Shown here: positions 46,298 through 54,245 of the stretch, in pieces | How positions within the stretch are numbered: the stretch's first letter is position 1 | How the letters are laid out: every line of letters begins with the position of its first letter | Assembly: GCF_000010785.1 (NCBI RefSeq) | Contig: NC_013799.1 | Location: 1,612,001 to 1,676,000, forward strand | Direction: 5' to 3' | DNA from: Hydrogenobacter thermophilus TK-6 | Lineage (GTDB): Bacteria; Aquificota; Aquificia; Aquificales; Aquificaceae | DNA length: 64,000 bases | The notes under the pieces: generated by a model | What the model was told of the DNA's origin: nothing | Seen by the model: only the letters and a program-made list of their open reading frames with translations | Databases searched by the model: none | Made by a program: the position numbers and the translations under genes

Positions 46298-46828
46298 ATG
46301 CTAAGGCTCTTTTTCTTACTCCTTTTTGTGATCCTTTCGTGCCAAAAGGAGAAGCCTGCGACTTTTGAAAGCATAAGCGTTTACTTTTCTCCCAAGGGTG
46401 GTGCAAGGGAAGCCATCTTGAGGCAGATAAATAGTGCAAAAGAAAGCATAGACATTGCCATGTTTGCCTTCACTTCAAGGGAGATAGGTCAGGCGGTGCT
46501 GGACGCTCACAGGCGTGGGGTAAAGATTAGAATAATTTTGGACCAGAAGCAGGCGGAGGAAAAGTTTTCCAGGTATCCCATCTTCCTCCAAGAGGGTATC
46601 CCAGTTAAACTTCTGCCAGTATCTGGTAAAAAGTTCGTAAAGGGTCTTATGCATAATAAGTTTGCAATAGTGGACAAACAGGTGGTGATTACGGGGTCTT
46701 ATAACTGGACTGCAAGTGCAGAGGAGATAAATTACGAAAACTTGCTCATAATTAAAAGCCATGAATTAGCTAAAAGATATGAAGAGTATTTTGATAGTAT
46801 GTGGAAGAAAGCGGGCGACGGGATTTGA
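46298..46828 (+). CDS. phospholipase D-family (Nuc-like) lipoprotein nuclease
   Basis: This 176-residue protein has one HKD motif, HNKFAIVD (around residues 139-146), followed by GSYNWTASAEEIN, as in the small dimeric PLD endonucleases (Nuc). The N-terminus RLFFLLLFVILSC looks like a lipoprotein signal with Cys16. Such proteins degrade DNA in the periplasm or act on phospholipids. The last codons and the stop lie inside the antisense of the tRNA-Gly gene, so the C-terminal residues AGDGI are dictated by the tRNA. It is divergent from holB. Confidence 0.85.
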   Translation: MLRLFFLLLFVILSCQKEKPATFESISVYFSPKGGAREAILRQINSAKESIDIAMFAFTSREIGQAVLDAHRRGVKIRIILDQKQAEEKFSRYPIFLQEGIPVKLLPVSGKKFVKGLMHNKFAIVDKQVVITGSYNWTASAEEINYENLLIIKSHELAKRYEEYFDSMWKKAGDGI

Positions 46829-46895: not shown

Positions 46896-47393
46896 TTATA
46901 CCAGTCTGATGACCCAAGCATTATAAAGTAAATTAGAGTAAAGATGCACAAGGCTTACAAAAATCAAGGAATCAGTTTTCTTATAAAGAAAGCCAAAAAG
47001 CAAAGAGGGAAAGAAAGTAAGAAGGGATACAAAGTTTTGGTATATCAAAAAGTGGGGCAATGCAAACATGGCAGAGACTGTTATATTTCCATACCTGCGC
47101 ATAAGGTATGCTCTGAAAAAAACCTCTTCCGCAAGTGCAGAAAGGAAAGCATTAAGCAGCGTTTTTATGTCAAACCCCAGAAGGAGGCAAATGGGAAAGG
47201 TAAGTATAAAAAGATTCCACGGATTTTTCCATCTGAAGATGTTTTCTAAAAAAACAAGTGGTGAAAGAAGCACTACAATAGAGAAGTCAGGAAAGTCCAA
47301 AAGCCTGTGGGATAAAAGAGTTGCTATAAGCACAAAGTAAAGAAGCATCTCAGAGTATCTTTTTGTAAACGATCCTATCACCTTGCCTGTCAT
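46896..47393 (-). CDS. CPBP-family intramembrane metalloprotease (CAAX-protease-like)
   Basis: This membrane protein of about 165 residues has the CPBP motifs AEEVFFRAYL (EExxxR), a second His in FALPHFLIY and VHLYSN near the end. Several hydrophobic helices separate them. Family members are glutamate-dependent membrane proteases or have related roles. I start at an ATG behind GAGGT; this overlaps the gspK-like gene by 44 bases. A downstream ATG at 47348 would avoid the overlap. It is the last protein gene of the secretion operon, so action on a pilin-like or secreted substrate is possible but unproven. Confidence 0.72.
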   Translation of the reverse strand: MTGKVIGSFTKRYSEMLLYFVLIATLLSHRLLDFPDFSIVVLLSPLVFLENIFRWKNPWNLFILTFPICLLLGFDIKTLLNAFLSALAEEVFFRAYLMRRYGNITVSAMFALPHFLIYQNFVSLLTFFPSLLFGFLYKKTDSLIFVSLVHLYSNLLYNAWVIRLV

Positions 47394-48204
47394 ATATAAC
47401 CTCAAAGGTAGAAGTGTATCCCCCGGACCTTAGGTCCATAACTATGTGAAAGTAGTTGCTTTTTACATCCACAAGGTTTTTTATGGCGTAGAGTATGTCA
47501 AAGGTAAAGCCATCCACCAGAAGGAGGTCTTCTACTTTTTTGAAGGGTTCTCTGTTTCTTCTTTCTATTATCTTGCTTGCCAGCGCCTGGTCTATTCTTG
47601 GGTCAAGAGCCATAAGTATGTAAGAGTTGGCAGTGTTTATGTTTATCTTCCCTGAGGAATAAACGGTGGTGAGACTCAAAAGTCCGGGGTAAAATTCATT
47701 TCCTATGGTTTTACCAAGAAGGTCCTCACTTTTAAAGCCTGCCCACCTTATCTCTTCCTTTGAGTCCAGAGGTCCTCTCTTTATGGGATAGTCAGTATCT
47801 ATGTGAGCATTGCTTTTGCCTTCCCACGCAAGAAGGTTATCTTTGTAAGAGGGGTCTATGTTAAGTAGTCTCAAAAGCCTCTCAAAAAACTTTCCATAAG
47901 CTCCGCTGTCCACATAGTTTAGGTTGAGAAATCTCTCCTCGTCGTATATGTTTATGCTCAGCTCTCCCTTCTGAGTTTTGAAACTAAGGGGATACGCCCA
48001 TCTATCTTGCAAACTGTCAACGGAAGGGTCATCTCTTTTGAGACTATCAATAACCACGGGAAGAGCTGACATAAAAATCTGATAAGCTTGCTCTTTGAAG
48101 TAAAATTGCTCTACTGTAAGGTCTGCCTGCCTTACGCTGCTATATGTGTCCAGCACATAATAAACGGAAGAGATAAAAAGCAGAAGAACTAAAAGCACTA
48201 TCAT
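47350..48204 (-). CDS. gspK: GspK-like minor pseudopilin
   Basis: This 284-residue protein has an N-terminal hydrophobic stalk (MIVLLVLLLFISSVYYVLDTY) but no obvious prepilin-peptidase Gly-Phe site in the visible start. The large exported domain includes GspK features: NLNYVDSGAYGKFFERLLRL and helix-hairpin-helix-like motifs (KININTANSYILMALDPRID; FKKVEDLLLVDGFTFDIL). GspK caps the pseudopilus tip in type II secretion. It overlaps the gspM-like gene by four bases. Confidence 0.82.
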   Translation of the reverse strand: MIVLLVLLLFISSVYYVLDTYSSVRQADLTVEQFYFKEQAYQIFMSALPVVIDSLKRDDPSVDSLQDRWAYPLSFKTQKGELSINIYDEERFLNLNYVDSGAYGKFFERLLRLLNIDPSYKDNLLAWEGKSNAHIDTDYPIKRGPLDSKEEIRWAGFKSEDLLGKTIGNEFYPGLLSLTTVYSSGKININTANSYILMALDPRIDQALASKIIERRNREPFKKVEDLLLVDGFTFDILYAIKNLVDVKSNYFHIVMDLRSGGYTSTFEVIYDRQGDRIVYKKIL

Positions 48205-48605
48205 CTTATGAGCATCTCAACATCAAATAAGCCTTGACCTGTGTTGTCAACAGCTTTGAATTTTACTATCTTTATACCACGCTCCTCAAGGGTATAAACC
48301 ATCTGGGGAATTTTTGCTCCCGGCAGTTTTCTGCCTTTGACCTCGTATCCCACATCCGTCTGTCTTAAAGAGAGCAGTTCCCCACCTGCACTGGATAATA
48401 CGCTTCTTAAAAGATCCTCCGAGGGCTCCTCTCTCTTTCTATCCCTGTAGTTCTTCATCAAAAGCATAACCTCTTTGTACCTAAGGTAATCTCTGTAATA
48501 GGCTTCTCTGAGCTGATAGTATCTGTTTAAAAGTATATAGACCATAAGAAAGGTAAGGAGCAATGACAAGCCCATAAGATTTTTCTTGGTGAGCATTTGT
48601 CTCAT
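48201..48605 (-). CDS. gspM: GspM-like secretion/pilus assembly protein
   Basis: This 134-residue bitopic membrane protein has a short basic N-terminus, one helix (LMGLSLLLTFLMVYILLN), a coiled segment and a small periplasmic ferredoxin-like domain (GGELLSLRQTDVGYEV, MVYTLEERGIKIVKF). This matches GspM/PilO topology. Assignment rests mainly on topology and its place between gspL and gspK. It overlaps both by four bases. Confidence 0.72.
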   Translation of the reverse strand: MRQMLTKKNLMGLSLLLTFLMVYILLNRYYQLREAYYRDYLRYKEVMLLMKNYRDRKREEPSEDLLRSVLSSAGGELLSLRQTDVGYEVKGRKLPGAKIPQMVYTLEERGIKIVKFKAVDNTGQGLFDVEMLIR

Positions 48606-49756
48606 TTTATCTCCAGTTCAAACTCTACGCTTCCCGTAGGTGTCTTTTTTACCTTCTGAGGTTTCATAAGGCTTACCACTTCCTCTTTCCCCTCCCCCTT
48701 TATCCTCAAACTACCTTCTGCAAACTCTATGGAGTATATCTTTACGCCTTGCTTTACCCTTTTTGTGAGTTCTGACAGTTTTTTGGTAAGCTCATAAGGT
48801 TCGCCAGTTGATACCTTTGACTTTACCTGATCATACAGAGAGACTATAGGCTCGTTGGGAAAAGTCTTTTTGAACTCTTCCCTTTCTACACTCTCCATCT
48901 TTTGGGAAGACCAGAGAAAGCCCAAAAGCAGGTAAGAGGCAAAAAATAGCGACATGCTTGTAGCTGCTAAAATGGCGCTAACTTTTAACTCTTTGTCAGT
49001 CAGCTCTCTTTTGACAAAGTCAGGATATGGATTTTTTACAATGAACTTAAGACTTGCGCCAAAGGCTGAGGTAAGCTCAGGCTCACAAAAGTGGTGGCTT
49101 TCCGCCCTTGGAAGAAGGTCTTTCAAGCCTTTTGTTTTAGAACCACCTCCGCTAAGGATCAGAGGTTCACTCTCCGCACTTAGCCCCACAGAAGAAAGTA
49201 TATGCTTTATACCCTGCAATACTTCTTCCAGTTCCAAACCTTTTTCTATTTTCCATCTTTCAGCATGCTCTTTGGTTATTCCTCTTTTTTGAGAGACCAC
49301 ATCTGTAAGATAGTCCCCGCCTTTTAAAATTACTCGGTAGCTCTTTAAAAGCCCCTCCTCACACTTCACCAGCGTGGTCTTTCTCCTGCCCATGTCCAGA
49401 AGGTAGCCATCCTGATAGCCAAGCACTTGCAAAACTCTTGCCAGAGCAAAGACCTCCAGCTCTACATTAAAACAGTCTTGCGCTGCAAAGTTCCTGTATA
49501 CTCCTAGGAATACAAGGTCATTGTATAAAGACACATCCCAGTTTACCCTGCCGTATCTTTCCTCCACATCAAGGGTGTAGAAGCTTTTAATCTCGCTTAT
49601 CTTCTTTGAAAAAGCCTGCTCAACTTTCACCAGACACAAGTCAGATGGAATTACGCATATTTTTTTGCCAAGCTTTTTGGTAGCTCTCCAGTCCTTCTTT
49701 AAAAAGGGCTTTTCAACGCTGAAGACTTTTTCTCCATCAACGCCTGTGTATATCAT
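48602..49756 (-). CDS. gspL: GspL-like actin-fold assembly protein
   Basis: This 384-residue protein combines a cytoplasmic actin-like domain (about 1-235; DMGRRKTTLVKCEEG and LILSGGGSKTKGLKDLLP are its phosphate-type loops) with one membrane helix (SAILAATSMSLFFASYLLLG, about 257-276) and a periplasmic part. This is the PilM-PilN fusion layout of GspL. GspL ties the GspE ATPase to the inner-membrane platform. Overlaps of four bases with gspE and gspM indicate one coupled operon. Confidence 0.82.
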   Translation of the reverse strand: MIYTGVDGEKVFSVEKPFLKKDWRATKKLGKKICVIPSDLCLVKVEQAFSKKISEIKSFYTLDVEERYGRVNWDVSLYNDLVFLGVYRNFAAQDCFNVELEVFALARVLQVLGYQDGYLLDMGRRKTTLVKCEEGLLKSYRVILKGGDYLTDVVSQKRGITKEHAERWKIEKGLELEEVLQGIKHILSSVGLSAESEPLILSGGGSKTKGLKDLLPRAESHHFCEPELTSAFGASLKFIVKNPYPDFVKRELTDKELKVSAILAATSMSLFFASYLLLGFLWSSQKMESVEREEFKKTFPNEPIVSLYDQVKSKVSTGEPYELTKKLSELTKRVKQGVKIYSIEFAEGSLRIKGEGKEEVVSLMKPQKVKKTPTGSVEFELEIK

Positions 49757-51165
49757 TCTTCTACCTTAACCGCTCTTATGAGTTCCTCAGGTGTTGTTAT
49801 TCCCATTATAACTTTCTCAAGCCCATCCTCGTACATACTTCTAAAACCCTTTTCTTTGGCTTTCTTCCTTATATCGTTGGCATCCTGAGTTTTTAGGATT
49901 AGCTGTTTTAACTCTTCGTCAAGCTCCAACACCTCGTATATGCCCATCCTTCCCCTGTAGCCTGTACCCATACACATCTCACAGCCCCTTCCTCTGTAAA
50001 AGGTGTAATCTCCATCAAGTCCCAGCTGATGGAGTTCCTCCTTCGTAGGTTTGTAGGGTTCTTTACAGTACTCGCACACCTTTCTTACAAGTCTTTGAGC
50101 CAGCACGCCCTCCAGAGAGGAAGCTATTAAAAATGGCTCAATGCCGAGGTCTGAAAGTCTTGTGATGGCGGAAGGAGCGTCGTTGGTGTGAAGAGTTGAA
50201 AGAACCAAGTGACCTGTCAGAGCTGCGTGGACTGCTATTTGAGCTGTTTCGCCATCTCTTATCTCCCCCACCATTATCACATCTGGGTCCTGTCTGAGGA
50301 TGGCTCTCAGTCCGCTGGCAAAGGTGAGTCCTACCTTTGGATTTACCTGTATTTGACTCACACCTTTTACTTGATACTCGGGCGGGTCTTCTATGGTTAT
50401 TATGTTTTTGTGCGGACTCTTTATGTGTAAAATCATGGCATAAAGTGTAGTACTTTTGCCTGCTCCGGTGGGTCCAGTTGCCAGCACTATACCGTATGGC
50501 TTTTGAGCGAGTCTCTTGACTTTTTCTAGGTCTTCCTCCGAAAGCCCAAGTTCCTGCAGAGTAAGCATAGTGCCAGACTTGTCAAGGAGTCTCAGCACCA
50601 CCCTTTCTCCAAAAGTTGTAGGCACTATGGAAACTCTTATGTCCAAGTCCCTTTTACCTATCCTCACTCTTATCTTTCCATCTTGAGGCACCCTTCTCTC
50701 CGCCACATTGAGGTTTGCCAGAACCTTTATGCGCGAGACAACAGACTCGTGAAGGGAAAGAGGCAGGCTTACATAGTCGTGAAGCACACCATCAAGGCGA
50801 AGTCTCACCAGAGAGCCATCCTCGTAAGGCTCTATGTGTATGTCGGAAGCGGATAAAGTGGTTGCCTTTATAAGCGTGGAGTTTACAAAGCTCACCGCCG
50901 GACTTTTTTCTTCCTCCAGGAGTATGTCCCTTTTGGAGTCCTCCTCTTCTTTTAGCTCCTCCACATAAACTTCTTCCTGAGCCAGCCTGTTTTGAAGCTC
51001 CTTTGAAAACTCCTCCCCATCCACTTCAAGAGCTTCTACACTTTTTCCTGTTAAGAACCTTATCTCCTCTATTACTAAAGGGTCGTATCCTCTGGGAACT
51101 AAGAGCTTTATGTAATCTTCACCTTCCTCCACAGGCACAAGCCTGTAGGTTTTTAGTATGTCCAT
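49753..51165 (-). CDS. gspE: GspE/PilB-type secretion ATPase
   Basis: This hexameric ATPase of 470 residues powers pseudopilus or pilus assembly. Walker A is GPTGAGKS (231-238). The Asp box, Walker B (DVIMVGEIRD, 295-304) and His box (TGHLVLSTLHTNDAPSAITR) are all intact. A four-cysteine zinc motif (CEYC, then CEMC) is near residues 366-395. The N-terminal domain is short compared with PilB. It starts four bases after the heme-sensor gene. The secretin, platform protein and major pseudopilin are not in the window. Confidence 0.93.
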   Translation of the reverse strand: MDILKTYRLVPVEEGEDYIKLLVPRGYDPLVIEEIRFLTGKSVEALEVDGEEFSKELQNRLAQEEVYVEELKEEEDSKRDILLEEEKSPAVSFVNSTLIKATTLSASDIHIEPYEDGSLVRLRLDGVLHDYVSLPLSLHESVVSRIKVLANLNVAERRVPQDGKIRVRIGKRDLDIRVSIVPTTFGERVVLRLLDKSGTMLTLQELGLSEEDLEKVKRLAQKPYGIVLATGPTGAGKSTTLYAMILHIKSPHKNIITIEDPPEYQVKGVSQIQVNPKVGLTFASGLRAILRQDPDVIMVGEIRDGETAQIAVHAALTGHLVLSTLHTNDAPSAITRLSDLGIEPFLIASSLEGVLAQRLVRKVCEYCKEPYKPTKEELHQLGLDGDYTFYRGRGCEMCMGTGYRGRMGIYEVLELDEELKQLILKTQDANDIRKKAKEKGFRSMYEDGLEKVIMGITTPEELIRAVKVEE

Positions 51166-51169
51166 GGGA

Positions 51170-52066
51170 TTATTTTAACAGGTCCATAACCTTCTTTATG
51201 CTGACTCTCATTCTTTCAAAAGCCTCCGCCAGCTTCCCAATCTCGTCGTCGGATGTGATGTCTACAGGCTCATCCACATTGCCTTTGGCTATCTCTTCTG
51301 CCTTTCTTTCAAGCCTCTCTATGGGTTTGAACACCAGCCTGTCAAGGGAGATAAGGATAAAAAGCGTCAGCAGTAAAAATATGCCAAAAATGGAAAGTCC
51401 TCTGTAAAGACCTGTCAGCTGGGCTTTTAGCACCGTGGATTCAAAGGGGACAAAGACCATGACTGCTCCCTGAACCTTACCTACCTCCCAGTTTAGGTCT
51501 CTCTGGGGTTTGTAAAGAGCCTGTATAACCTTGGGCATGTTCTGAACCTGACCGTGGCATCTCAGACAGCTACCGTCAGGCACCACTGCGGAGGCATAAA
51601 CAAAGTACCTCTCCCCTCTGTAGTTTACTATGTCTGAGTATTCCCTGTGTGTTGAATTTCTCATGAAATTTATCACCCCCGCTTCCAGCTCGTTGGGTTC
51701 GTCCTTTGGGTTTAGGGGATTGAAAGCCACCTGCCTGAGGCTAAAGTTGGGAAGCTCCTCGCTAACTTTTTTGAAGATGGACGCAGTAAAAAAGCTGGAA
51801 GACTGCCCCTCAAGTATAAAGTCCTCCTTAGAGCAACCGCTTGCCAAAAGCTCATCAATCTTTGGTCTTAAAGTGCTTCTCACGTACTCCCTTGAAGCTT
51901 TGGTAAAGGTCATGGCGGTTTTTATCTTCTCCTTTGTGGTCTCTTTGGCAGTTTCTATGGTGTTTTGATAGGAGTAAAAGCCTACTACTAAACCTAACAC
52001 TGTCCCCAGAAGTATCACAGGTAGTCCCACCTTCCACCTTATGCTTTTGGGCAAAGGTAACCTCAT
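51170..52066 (-). CDS. membrane sensor with CxxCH heme motif (DUF3365-like) and HAMP domain
   Basis: This 298-residue protein has two membrane helices (about 13-32 and 224-242) that bracket a periplasmic domain resembling DUF3365/Tll0287-type sensors. The domain holds a c-type heme site, Cys167-Leu-Arg-Cys170-His171. A HAMP linker (about 243-296; FKPIERLERKAEEIAKGNVD, DEIGKLAEAFERMR) ends the protein. There is no kinase, cyclase or chemoreceptor output. The signal must pass to a separate partner, most simply the co-operonic proteins. It overlaps the 385-residue gene by four bases. Confidence 0.8.
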   Translation of the reverse strand: MRLPLPKSIRWKVGLPVILLGTVLGLVVGFYSYQNTIETAKETTKEKIKTAMTFTKASREYVRSTLRPKIDELLASGCSKEDFILEGQSSSFFTASIFKKVSEELPNFSLRQVAFNPLNPKDEPNELEAGVINFMRNSTHREYSDIVNYRGERYFVYASAVVPDGSCLRCHGQVQNMPKVIQALYKPQRDLNWEVGKVQGAVMVFVPFESTVLKAQLTGLYRGLSIFGIFLLLTLFILISLDRLVFKPIERLERKAEEIAKGNVDEPVDITSDDEIGKLAEAFERMRVSIKKVMDLLK

Positions 52067-53220
52067 GTTAACAACCTCCTCGCTTTTTCTAAAAATTTAC
52101 TGGCATGTGCGCTATCTGGGATCTCCATGTAAAGCTCCTCTATCAATCTTTTGAGATCCTCCTCTCGCATCTGTCTTTCTGAATATCCCTTTTCCTTCAG
52201 TATTTTACTCCACAGCAGTGCTCCTATTGGTCCTATCTCCTCTATAAAGTAAGATCTTATCAATCTTACCTTTTCTTCTTCTACATAAGTACTTTCAGAG
52301 GGGGAAGGCTCTTGAGTGTAAAACTCAACTTCCATGGCTGGAAAGGTCTCTCTTACTTGAAGGCTGTATAAGAAAAAGGTATTTTTAGTGCCTGGGCTTA
52401 TTTCAAGGCTCCGATTTTCTATCTGGTCCATCATGTGAGCAAGTCTCAAAAGGAAAGTGCCTTTGTAAAAAAATTCGTACATCCTACCTCCTTTTTGGAG
52501 ATGCACATCAAGAATAGCACTGAGTTTCCTATCACTTACCTCCTTCCTGACTATACCCAGCTCCTCATTACTCCTAAAGGTGTCCTCTATTTCTTTCTTT
52601 AGGGTATTCATAGAAGACAAAAACAATGGTAATTCTGGCTCTGTGGCATAAACTGCTATGCAATCGCCATCCTTATCAATACTGATCCTTTGGCGTGTGC
52701 CTATGGTATAAGTGTTATCGTGGTAAGAGCATATGGCAAGTCCCTTCTGGAACATGATCATGTGCGTAAACCCTCTTCTGCTGCAAAGCACCAAATAGCC
52801 ATCTAAGTGGGACCGTTTTACCTGCTCCATAAGTCCGCTGATATTAACATGAGAAAACTTCATGCAGGTGAGAAACTCGTGTCCATAAGACACAAAGTTG
52901 TAAGGACACGGTGGGGTCCTCTGCTGGTCTCTGAAAGTGATTAAATTAATAAGGGACACCTCATAAAAAGAGACAGTCCCAGCATTACTTTTTGGCTTGT
53001 AATTTTCTACATCTAAATTATTTATACTTCCATCTCTATCTATGCTTACACCCCATATGGGTTGGCCTTCCGCATACAGTATGTAGTCATCCAGATTCCA
53101 GTAAGATATCTTGAAATATCCTGTGAGCTTCTTTGTAATAACCTCCTCAAAGAGTTTTCTTAAGTCCACCGCCTCCAAACTGAGTTCTTTATAGAGCGCT
53201 ACTCTTTCCATGTTTGGCAA
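52063..53220 (-). CDS. 385-residue protein with duplicated PATAN/DUF4388-like motif
   Basis: No family can be named with certainty. Two similar blocks are visible. Residues 31-58 read KLTGYFKIS, then ILYAEGQPIWGV. Residues 138-165 read HLDGYLVLC, then IMFQKGLAICSY. Each has Gly-Tyr, a strand, then a turn with Gly and a hydrophobic strand, as in the PATAN (DUF4388) domains that often accompany bacterial small GTPases. The C-terminal half is helical and charged with no motif. The start overlaps the GTPase gene by 32 bases; an ATG at 53211 is an alternative. It lies between the GTPase and sensor genes. Confidence 0.65.
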   Translation of the reverse strand: MPNMERVALYKELSLEAVDLRKLFEEVITKKLTGYFKISYWNLDDYILYAEGQPIWGVSIDRDGSINNLDVENYKPKSNAGTVSFYEVSLINLITFRDQQRTPPCPYNFVSYGHEFLTCMKFSHVNISGLMEQVKRSHLDGYLVLCSRRGFTHMIMFQKGLAICSYHDNTYTIGTRQRISIDKDGDCIAVYATEPELPLFLSSMNTLKKEIEDTFRSNEELGIVRKEVSDRKLSAILDVHLQKGGRMYEFFYKGTFLLRLAHMMDQIENRSLEISPGTKNTFFLYSLQVRETFPAMEVEFYTQEPSPSESTYVEEEKVRLIRSYFIEEIGPIGALLWSKILKEKGYSERQMREEDLKRLIEELYMEIPDSAHASKFLEKARRLLT

Positions 53221-53758
53221 CCAGTATGTTTTTTATTATCTTTACAAAGGTTTCTAAAACACCCTTGCCTTCTATAGCCACAGATTCTACATAGTCGGTA
53301 TCCCATGGATTGAACATCATCTGCATGTCATCAATGGGCATAGCGCTGGGAAGATCCCTCTTATTGTACTGCACCACCACAGGGAAATGTAGGAGGTCAT
53401 GCCCTTGCTCCTTTAGGACCGCTGCAGTTTCTCTCATCACAAGAAAGTTAACCTCTTTTCTTTCTACACTGCTATCCACTACAAAGACTAATCCATCAAC
53501 ACCCTTTACTATAACCTTTCTGAGAGGATGAAGCCTGAACTGACCGGGTGTTGTCATGATCTTTACATCCATCTCCACGCCCTCTATGTTGAGGCTGCTA
53601 ACAAACATTTCTACAAAGAGGGTTCTCTGCTCGTCGGTTTCCATGCTGACAAATTCCCCCTTCGCCAGTCCTCTTTCCTTTAGTATCTCGTAGAGCTTCT
53701 TCACATTGGTGCTTTTACCTGCAAGGCTTGAGCCAAAGTAAACCACCTTGAGCTTCAT
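53189..53758 (-). CDS. MglA-like small Ras-type GTPase
   Basis: This 189-residue GTPase has P-loop GSSLAGKS (9-16), the switch/G3 region TTPGQF (69-74) and G4 NKRD (132-135). The contexts KVVYFGSSLAGKSTN, TDEQRTLF and KGVDGLVFVVDSSVER closely track MglA, the polarity switch of Myxococcus and Thermus. MglA cycles with its roadblock partner MglB, which acts as its GAP. Such a partner is encoded one base upstream. The operon continues into secretion/pilus genes, suggesting control of pilus assembly or placement. Confidence 0.9.
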   Translation of the reverse strand: MKLKVVYFGSSLAGKSTNVKKLYEILKERGLAKGEFVSMETDEQRTLFVEMFVSSLNIEGVEMDVKIMTTPGQFRLHPLRKVIVKGVDGLVFVVDSSVERKEVNFLVMRETAAVLKEQGHDLLHFPVVVQYNKRDLPSAMPIDDMQMMFNPWDTDYVESVAIEGKGVLETFVKIIKNILVAKHGKSSAL

Positions 53759-53759
53759 C

Positions 53760-54245
53760 TCATAGGCCTACCAGCTTACTTAACTTCTCTTCAAGACTTT
53801 TTACATCCACCTTTACCGTTTTAACTGGTACGAGTTTTACACTGGAGAATATCTCTTCAAGCTCTTGAGAAGCATCTCTCAAAAAGAGCCTTACGCTTCC
53901 CAAGGCTACGCCTTTATCCACCATTATACCTATGAGGAATCTTGGTTTTATTGCCTTTATTACCACATCAACCTTTTTGCCCTCAAACTGCAAAATGTCC
54001 AGCTCTTCTACAGATAGCATCTTTGACATTTCAGCTGCCGCACCAAACATTCCACTGATTAAGCTTGCTATAAATTCCGCTCTGTCTTCGTCTATCCTTT
54101 TGCCCTTTAAGCTTATGATCCTACCTGCATCATCAGCAAGAATGACAAGCTCCGCAGATGTTTTAGAAAAAAGATTTTTAAGCACCTCATCCAGCTTAGC
54201 CTTTGTATCCTGGTCAAGCTCATACTCTACAAGGTCAAGCTCCAT
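53760..54245 (-). CDS. roadblock/LC7-domain protein (MglB-like)
   Basis: This 161-residue protein has a roadblock/LC7 fold (SAELVILADDAGRIISLKG, ASLISGMFGAAAEMSKML, KPRFLIGIMVDKGVALGSVR). A charged C-terminal helix (VKVDVKSLEEKLSKLVGL) follows. Roadblock proteins act as GAPs or scaffolds for MglA-type GTPases. The gene precedes the GTPase by one base. A TATATT box (54269-54264) and an AAGGGGGG site lie upstream. glyA ends 33 bases before it, so it may have its own promoter or follow glyA. Confidence 0.87.
   Translation of the reverse strand: MELDLVEYELDQDTKAKLDEVLKNLFSKTSAELVILADDAGRIISLKGKRIDEDRAEFIASLISGMFGAAAEMSKMLSVEELDILQFEGKKVDVVIKAIKPRFLIGIMVDKGVALGSVRLFLRDASQELEEIFSSVKLVPVKTVKVDVKSLEEKLSKLVGL

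Follow-up and report, generated by a model that had tools for sequence, protein, structure and literature searches.

In Archaeoglobus fulgidus the receptor Af1503 has a HAMP domain as its sole cytosolic part, and its gene is translationally coupled to that of Af1502, a STAC protein that folds into a bundle of four helices, the first two joined by an LGPx(x)A motif (PMC4834066). Another group of described systems centres on the small GTPase MglA, which controls type IV pili in Myxococcus xanthus (PMC11580455) and whose known inputs there come by way of the Frz chemosensory system and response regulators (PMC4316618); PATAN-type proteins encoded beside MglA/MglB small GTPase genes have been noted previously (PMC4316618). 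The PATAN response regulators of cyanobacteria (PixE, PixG, LsiR) act on the pilus motor, and PilB1 of Synechocystis is a reported binding partner of PixE (reviewed in PMC7690835). On the sensory side, the Tll0287 family is now described as sCache_heme, in which a Cache domain binds c-heme covalently; its HAMP-bearing P. azotoformans member behaves as a nitric oxide (NO) sensor without an axial Cys, its stand-alone P. putida member is Cys/His-ligated and redox-like, and the paper describing them mentions neither a GTPase nor a roadblock protein (PMC12889525). Here we describe a four-gene cassette within a 64,000-nt stretch (the window) of the Hydrogenobacter thermophilus TK-6 genome (NC_013799.1, a single contig of 1,743,135 bp), which encodes a roadblock protein, an MglA-like GTPase, an adaptor with PATAN-like repeats and a STAC-like C-terminus, and a heme receptor that ends at its HAMP domain. 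On balance we favour the view that these proteins form a kinase-free HAMP-to-STAC-PATAN relay that controls an MglB/MglA switch and probably acts on type IV pili.

Like the Af1503-Af1502 pair, this locus combines a receptor that stops at HAMP without an effector, a partner four-helix bundle with (L/I)GP at the junction of helices 1 and 2, and genes that are overlapping or translationally coupled. It differs in that the STAC-like domain lies at the C-terminal end of a PATAN-like adaptor with several domains, the adaptor gene comes before the receptor gene, the sensor is a heme-Cache domain, and the neighbours are MglA/MglB, whereas the Af system neighbours solute transporters. The GTPase and roadblock genes share with the group 1 MglA-MglB of M. 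xanthus and Thermus the RT in G2, the NKRD motif and their adjoining position, but G3 reads TTPGQ instead of TVPGQ and a putative receptor and adaptor are encoded alongside, unlike M. xanthus mglA, which is distant from the genes of its response-regulator partners. PATAN response regulators carry a receiver domain where the present repeats are fused to a STAC-like domain and partnered with a kinase-free receptor, and the canonical PATAN-MglA2 set has a separate locus in the present genome. The P. azotoformans receptor shows the same order of transmembrane segment, heme-Cache domain, transmembrane segment and HAMP with nothing beyond it, but the present receptor is distinguished by a further Cys, whose spacing is constant, and by its association with an adaptor and a GTPase. 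Finally, the actinobacterial conservon CvnA-D also places a HAMP membrane receptor, a roadblock protein, an unknown protein and a small GTPase in one operon (PMC4316618); there the receptor CvnA is a histidine kinase and the GTPase CvnD a group 2 MglA, whereas the present cassette is kinase-free and has the PATAN-like/STAC-like adaptor. In the open-access literature we found no description of such a STAC-like fusion, of its pairing with a bacterial HAMP-only receptor, or of its coupling to MglA.

In the window the cassette is followed by gspE-, gspL-, gspM- and gspK-like genes, and our data show that these eight genes are two modules, the cassette being self-contained and the gsp set adjoining it only in the present species. 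This reading is based on neighbourhoods in relatives, in which the two are found apart. A search with the 382-residue adaptor over 136 Aquificota genomes (family-level counts were made over 64 genomes) found full-length relatives in many Aquificaceae, and across genera of this family the order roadblock-GTPase-adaptor-receptor is kept and gsp genes are never downstream. At the 98 adaptor loci read in other Aquificota genomes, gspE never lies within 2.5 kb on the strand of the adaptor. Three genomes of the same genus (G025, G027 and G028) hold cassette and gsp module at separate places, the cassette being followed by a mog/moaB-like gene and dnaJ in the first two and by a response-regulator gene in the third (names assigned by eye), and a fourth, G026, has gspL and no adaptor. 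Orthologues of gspL occur in 53 of the 64 family genomes at loci other than the cassette, and in G028, G052, G038 and G042 gspE-L-M-K is a stand-alone operon, with the 134-residue gspM candidate kept between gspL and gspK and a CPBP protease gene directly after gspK. These neighbourhoods led us to reject the eight genes as a single evolutionary unit. The sequence-only reading of this DNA had proposed that the GTPase gates GspE within one eight-gene system, and had named as evidence against this the occurrence of the four upstream genes mostly apart from secretion genes in relatives; this is what the neighbourhoods show, and the gating of GspE is therefore unsupported. Co-transcription across the receptor-gspE junction is likely, as a species-specific arrangement. 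The cassette is also patchy within genera (the adaptor is present in 3 of 14 genomes of genus g6 and absent from G026) and thus behaves as an accessory module.

The receptor matches the Tll0287-like family PF11845 (5.5e-33) and HAMP (1.2e-13). A Pfam/NCBIfam scan revealed no kinase, methyl-accepting chemotaxis protein or cyclase output, and the protein ends a few residues past HAMP, leaving HAMP as its sole cytosolic module in the manner of Af1503. Its model superposes on Tll0287 (5B82; TMt 0.74), in keeping with an sCache_heme fold carrying CXXCH, and the best PDB matches of its HAMP domain are the Af1503 HAMP structures (superposition TMt 0.90). The periplasmic c-heme sensor with HAMP that had been read from the sequence is thus borne out by family match, CLRCH motif and superposition. 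One further Cys precedes CxxCH by a constant 89 residues in the present receptor and in 21 of 22 heme-type relatives from Aquificaceae; the 12 complete receptors of family f5 (probably Desulfurobacteriaceae) have none. Because a single Cys at constant spacing is expected for the Tll0287/P. putida pattern, Cys78 is a candidate axial heme ligand, and we infer that the Aquificaceae receptors have Cys/His ligation and a redox-type signal; the f5 receptors, by the same comparison of sequences, may have heme chemistry of the NO type.

The C-terminal domain of the adaptor leads to the other member of the archaeal pair. A profile of 33 sequences of this domain, searched against the PDB, found Af1502 (5A1Q) at E 6e-5 as the sole match at E <= 0.1, and a smaller profile of 18 sequences found Af1502 at 3e-4. 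Four helices are present in the model (residues 312-326, 330-341, 350-363 and 367-381), with high pLDDT except in the linker 302-307, and IGPIG at residues 326-330 forms the junction of helices 1 and 2. GP is invariant across the 33 diverse members of the domain, with variants such as IGPAA and MGPMG, which corresponds to a relaxed LGPx(x)A in which the last Ala is often Gly. The other marks of STAC proteins, namely a four-helix bundle of ~60-90 residues, a profile relationship to a known STAC and genomic coupling to a HAMP-only receptor, are found as well, and SLC5 fusions were absent among the loci read. By separate searches, the receptor HAMP and the adaptor C-terminus resemble the two halves of the Af1503-Af1502 pair.

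At E <= 0.01 the STAC-like domain is present in 83 of the 136 genomes, and a HAMP or heme-Cache membrane protein lies directly beside the adaptor on the same strand at 85 of the 98 loci in relatives, with 5 of the 13 exceptions at contig edges. The loci fall into several classes: (i) the order roadblock-GTPase-adaptor-heme receptor; (ii) in genus g3, an adaptor paralogue paired with a 371-residue receptor whose periplasmic domain lacks CxxCH; (iii) also in g3, a short adaptor (~222-231 residues) with two HAMP-only membrane proteins of 125-143 residues; (iv) in family f2, probably Hydrogenothermaceae, the order HAMP-only protein-adaptor-roadblock2-PATAN-MglA2; and (v) in f5, a DUF4388-STAC protein and a heme receptor, with no GTPase. 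All classes share the HAMP end and the STAC-like domain, and no other part. The HAMP-only proteins as a whole are about 120-140 residues long. The non-heme receptor of class (ii) has 19% identity to the present receptor in the periplasmic domain and 84-90% in the second half of HAMP and the tail. With HAMP and STAC alone constant, this pattern is as expected if the two domains were in mutual contact. A locus search with the receptor alignment gave Aquificota records only, a result of the peptide patterns employed that does not prove restriction to the phylum. Two further arrangements were observed. In four g3 genomes (loci L113, L117, L161, L173) the trio of class (iii) is convergent with and abuts gspE, the only other gspE adjacency of such signalling genes, for which common descent may account. 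In G057 the cassette is naturally split, the heme receptor (L119:7462-8364) lying ~460 kb from the adaptor-GTPase pair (L043:8830-10459).

The remainder of the adaptor consists of three alpha/beta repeats in the AlphaFold model. The protein has no Pfam match at E <= 1, PF14332 (PATAN/DUF4388) included, and no NCBIfam family. Each repeat aligns weakly to one common PATAN (DUF4388) core by hhalign, and the f5 counterpart is a genuine DUF4388 (1.6e-13) fused to the shared C-terminal domain and preceding an sCache_heme-HAMP receptor. On these two grounds the label PATAN-like is reasonable and stops short of PATAN membership; the sequence-only reading had used the same label, and the alignments and the f5 fusion sustain it without a Pfam family match. 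A profile of the whole adaptor found no credible match among PDB chains, and Foldseek with the whole model returned sliding clamps and dioxygenases at low TM and probability <= 0.2, which we judged to be noise from repeated alpha/beta domains.

The GTPase carries a GSSLAGKS P-loop, RT in G2 at the position of the group 1 arginine finger, TTPGQ in G3 and NKRD in G4, and RTLF and TTPGQF are kept in all 19 readable orthologues. Read as a motif alone, TTPGQ is intermediate between the TVPGQ of MglA group 1 and the GTPGQ of groups 2-5. The best PDB match is M. xanthus MglA, and the roadblock protein has the Roadblock/LC7 fold, MglB among its PDB matches and a gene only 1 base from that of the GTPase, so the earlier assignment of an MglA/MglB-type pair holds. 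A GTPase gene lies within 2.5 kb of 33 of the 39 long Aquificaceae adaptors and of all 29 f2 adaptors, the latter GTPase being of a different MglA group (GTPGQ). The HAMP-STAC pair is linked to one type of MglA and roadblock protein in family f1 and to another in f2, and its connection to MglA was therefore probably made, or re-made, more than once. The window genome also has a second roadblock-PATAN(DUF4388)-MglA2 operon (contig positions 543431-545035), with a GTPGQ-type G3 and no attached HAMP protein.

In the mechanism that we propose, an event at the heme of the periplasmic Cache domain, most likely a change of redox state and alternatively NO, would cause a conformational change in the HAMP domain of a receptor that has no enzymatic output. 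The STAC-like domain of the adaptor would dock on this HAMP domain, as might be supposed for Af1502 and Af1503, and the PATAN-like repeats would relay its state to MglB-MglA, with an effect on how MglA exchanges nucleotide, hydrolyses GTP or is located in the cell. The target of MglA-GTP would in turn be a polar machine, and most probably the motor of type IV pili. The docking step is suggested by the order of the genes and the conservation of the domains; the contact of adaptor and GTPase and the nature of the signal are likewise putative. Least certain is the pilus output, which is guessed from homology: MglA governs type IV pili in M. xanthus, PixE is reported to bind PilB1 and PilT homologues are universal in the family (64 of 64 genomes). 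The sequence-only reading had already placed the adaptor as a relay between receptor and GTPase, a position that is plausible, and had continued it to GspE, a step that falls away. More tentatively, and with slightly less than even confidence, we suggest that HAMP-STAC could be a general kinase-free transmembrane relay that Aquificota coupled, probably at least twice, to MglB/MglA.

Several observations weigh against the proposed relay. The Af1502 match is modest and local (~43 residues), the PATAN assignment of the repeats is weak at the profile level (P 0.0013-0.011), and Foldseek of the adaptor model yielded nothing useful. The 98 loci share ancestry and are not independent, which makes the count of classes a fairer measure than 85 of 98. 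A phylogenetic profile against PilT is uninformative, as every genome is positive. Furthermore, no GTPase is found near the f5 or the short adaptors, so a GTPase is not obligatory for the HAMP-STAC pair, and these same loci lend support to the idea that HAMP-STAC and MglA-MglB are independent modules joined by co-regulation, with no direct signal from receptor to GTPase. The adaptor-GTPase pair of G057, which has no adjoining receptor, could be read in the same way. The tight, overlapping gene order in Aquificaceae and the second linkage in f2, differently assembled from a GTPase of another group, another type of roadblock protein and another adaptor N-terminus, argue for a direct connection, and we regard mere co-regulation as rather improbable.

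A different question is what the receptor senses. The cassette could operate as we describe with the receptor mainly a periplasmic NO sensor tied to denitrification, like the P. azotoformans protein; this would change the signal only and is compatible with the remainder of the proposed relay. The window genome does have NirS-type genes, yet the P. azotoformans protein lacks the axial Cys found in the present receptor and nearly all of its relatives, and NirS is present in 9 of 22 genomes with the heme cassette against 16 of 42 without (Fisher p = 1.0, 64 genomes). An association is likewise absent among the 42 good genomes (p = 0.52). We therefore rejected a link to NO and denitrification by NirS profile, and consider an NO receptor unlikely, if less so than co-regulated independent modules. 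Lowest of all we place the idea of one eight-gene system in which the heme signal, via the GTPase, gates GspE of a type II secretion or pseudopilus machine. It could draw on the co-direction of the genes, on the 4-base receptor-gspE gap and on the lack of a terminator-like site there on that strand, in a promoter/terminator scan that resembled shuffled expectation and carries no evidential weight. GspE also belongs to the PilB family, a member of which is reportedly bound by a PATAN protein in Synechocystis, and the g3 trio is convergent with gspE. Against this, the cassette is followed by gsp genes at none of the 98 loci in relatives, the modules lie apart within the genus, gspL occurs there without the cassette, and gspE-L-M-K-CPBP stands alone elsewhere, which together make such a system very improbable. 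The preferred reading remains the kinase-free relay to MglB/MglA.

The features of the locus are collected in Table 1. The eight genes lie at 47350-54245, all on the minus strand and where the sequence-only reading had put them. That reading gave gaps and overlaps of mostly 1-4 bases; the junctions are indeed short (from roadblock through gspK: +1, -23, -4, +4, -4, -4 and -4 bases), but GTPase and adaptor overlap by 23. This value depends on the adaptor start, most likely ATG 53211, which gives 382 residues; TTG 53220 would give 385. The co-directed run is also longer than the eight genes first described, with glyA ending 33 bp upstream of the roadblock gene, a linkage likewise present in G025 and G027, and the gene of a CPBP-family intramembrane protease overlapping the end of gspK. 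The gspM candidate has no Pfam or NCBIfam family match.

Table 1. Features of the cassette and of the adjoining gsp module (positions in the window).
Feature	Position	Strand	Basis
Roadblock/LC7 protein, MglB-like, 161 residues	53760..54245	-	Robl_LC7 4.9e-10; MglB PDB chains 3.6e-10
MglA-like small GTPase, 189 residues	53189..53758	-	Ras 1.7e-8; best PDB match MglA 1.3e-35
Adaptor, 382 residues	52063..53211	-	No Pfam/NCBIfam family; AlphaFold pLDDT 90.0, pTM 0.72; Aquificaceae orthologues
PATAN-like repeat 1 (adaptor residues 4-95)	52927..53202	-	Alpha/beta repeat in model; hhalign to PATAN core P 0.011
PATAN-like repeat 2 (adaptor residues 111-190)	52642..52881	-	Model; hhalign P 0.005, register shared
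PATAN-like repeat 3 (adaptor residues 205-283)	52363..52599	-	Model; hhalign P 0.0013, register shared
STAC-like C-terminal four-helix domain (adaptor residues 309-381)	52069..52287	-	Profile match Af1502 5A1Q; helices in model
HAMP-terminated receptor, 298 residues, TM-sCache_heme (Tll0287)-TM-HAMP-KKVMDLLK end (TM, transmembrane segment)	51170..52066	-	PF11845 and PF00672
CLRCH c-heme attachment motif (receptor residues 167-171)	51554..51568	-	CxxCH invariant in heme-type orthologues
Cys78 of receptor, candidate axial heme ligand	51833..51835	-	Sole further Cys; constant spacing in relatives
Receptor HAMP domain and C-terminal tail	51173..51340	-	Constant part where periplasmic domain is swapped
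gspE-like ATPase, first gene of separate module	49753..51165	-	T2SSE 4.5e-135; TIGR02533 615.9 bits, cut-off 630.25
gspL-like (FtsA/PilM-type) protein	48602..49756	-	Weak FtsA/PilM profiles
gspM candidate, 134 residues	48201..48605	-	Name from position only
gspK-like minor pseudopilin	47350..48204	-	T2SSK 1.2e-9; NF037980 4.1e-24
CPBP intramembrane protease, 3' partner of gspE-L-M-K	46896..47393	-	PF02517 7.1e-11; myxosortase core 5.3e-15, below cut-off

The gsp module does not belong to a single type II secretion locus in which gspE accompanies a secretin, GspF and pseudopilins; gspE and gspK resemble type II secretion genes, but secretins and GspF-type proteins are encoded elsewhere. The whole genome has three secretins, three GspF/PilC-type proteins, three GspE/PilB-type ATPases and two PilT-type ATPases, all scattered, which leaves more than one candidate secretin for gspE-L-M-K. 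In Myxococcota, type II secretion is coupled to myxosortase, a protease for C-terminal sorting (PMC11980579), and by analogy the CPBP protein is possibly a protease of this kind. Beyond it, an open reading frame at 46298-46828 on the plus strand has a lipoprotein-like start, an HNKFAIVD motif and a resemblance to phospholipase D-type nucleases, as judged by eye only.

What looked like a tempting eight-gene operon for the gating of secretion consists of two modules that are neighbours locally. The four-gene cassette gains in interest over its first description, as it ties a known and unexplained type of receptor to a small GTPase. HAMP-only receptors such as Af1503 have no effector domain. The present loci offer a concrete candidate for their signal output, in which HAMP would bind the STAC-like domain and the signal would pass through the PATAN-like repeats to the GTPase, a route that is testable with thermostable proteins. 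If true, an environmental heme sensor would be linked to MglA with no kinase or response regulator between them, a Ras-like GTPase would have gained an environmental receptor of its own, and the missing effector of Af1503-like receptors would be supplied.

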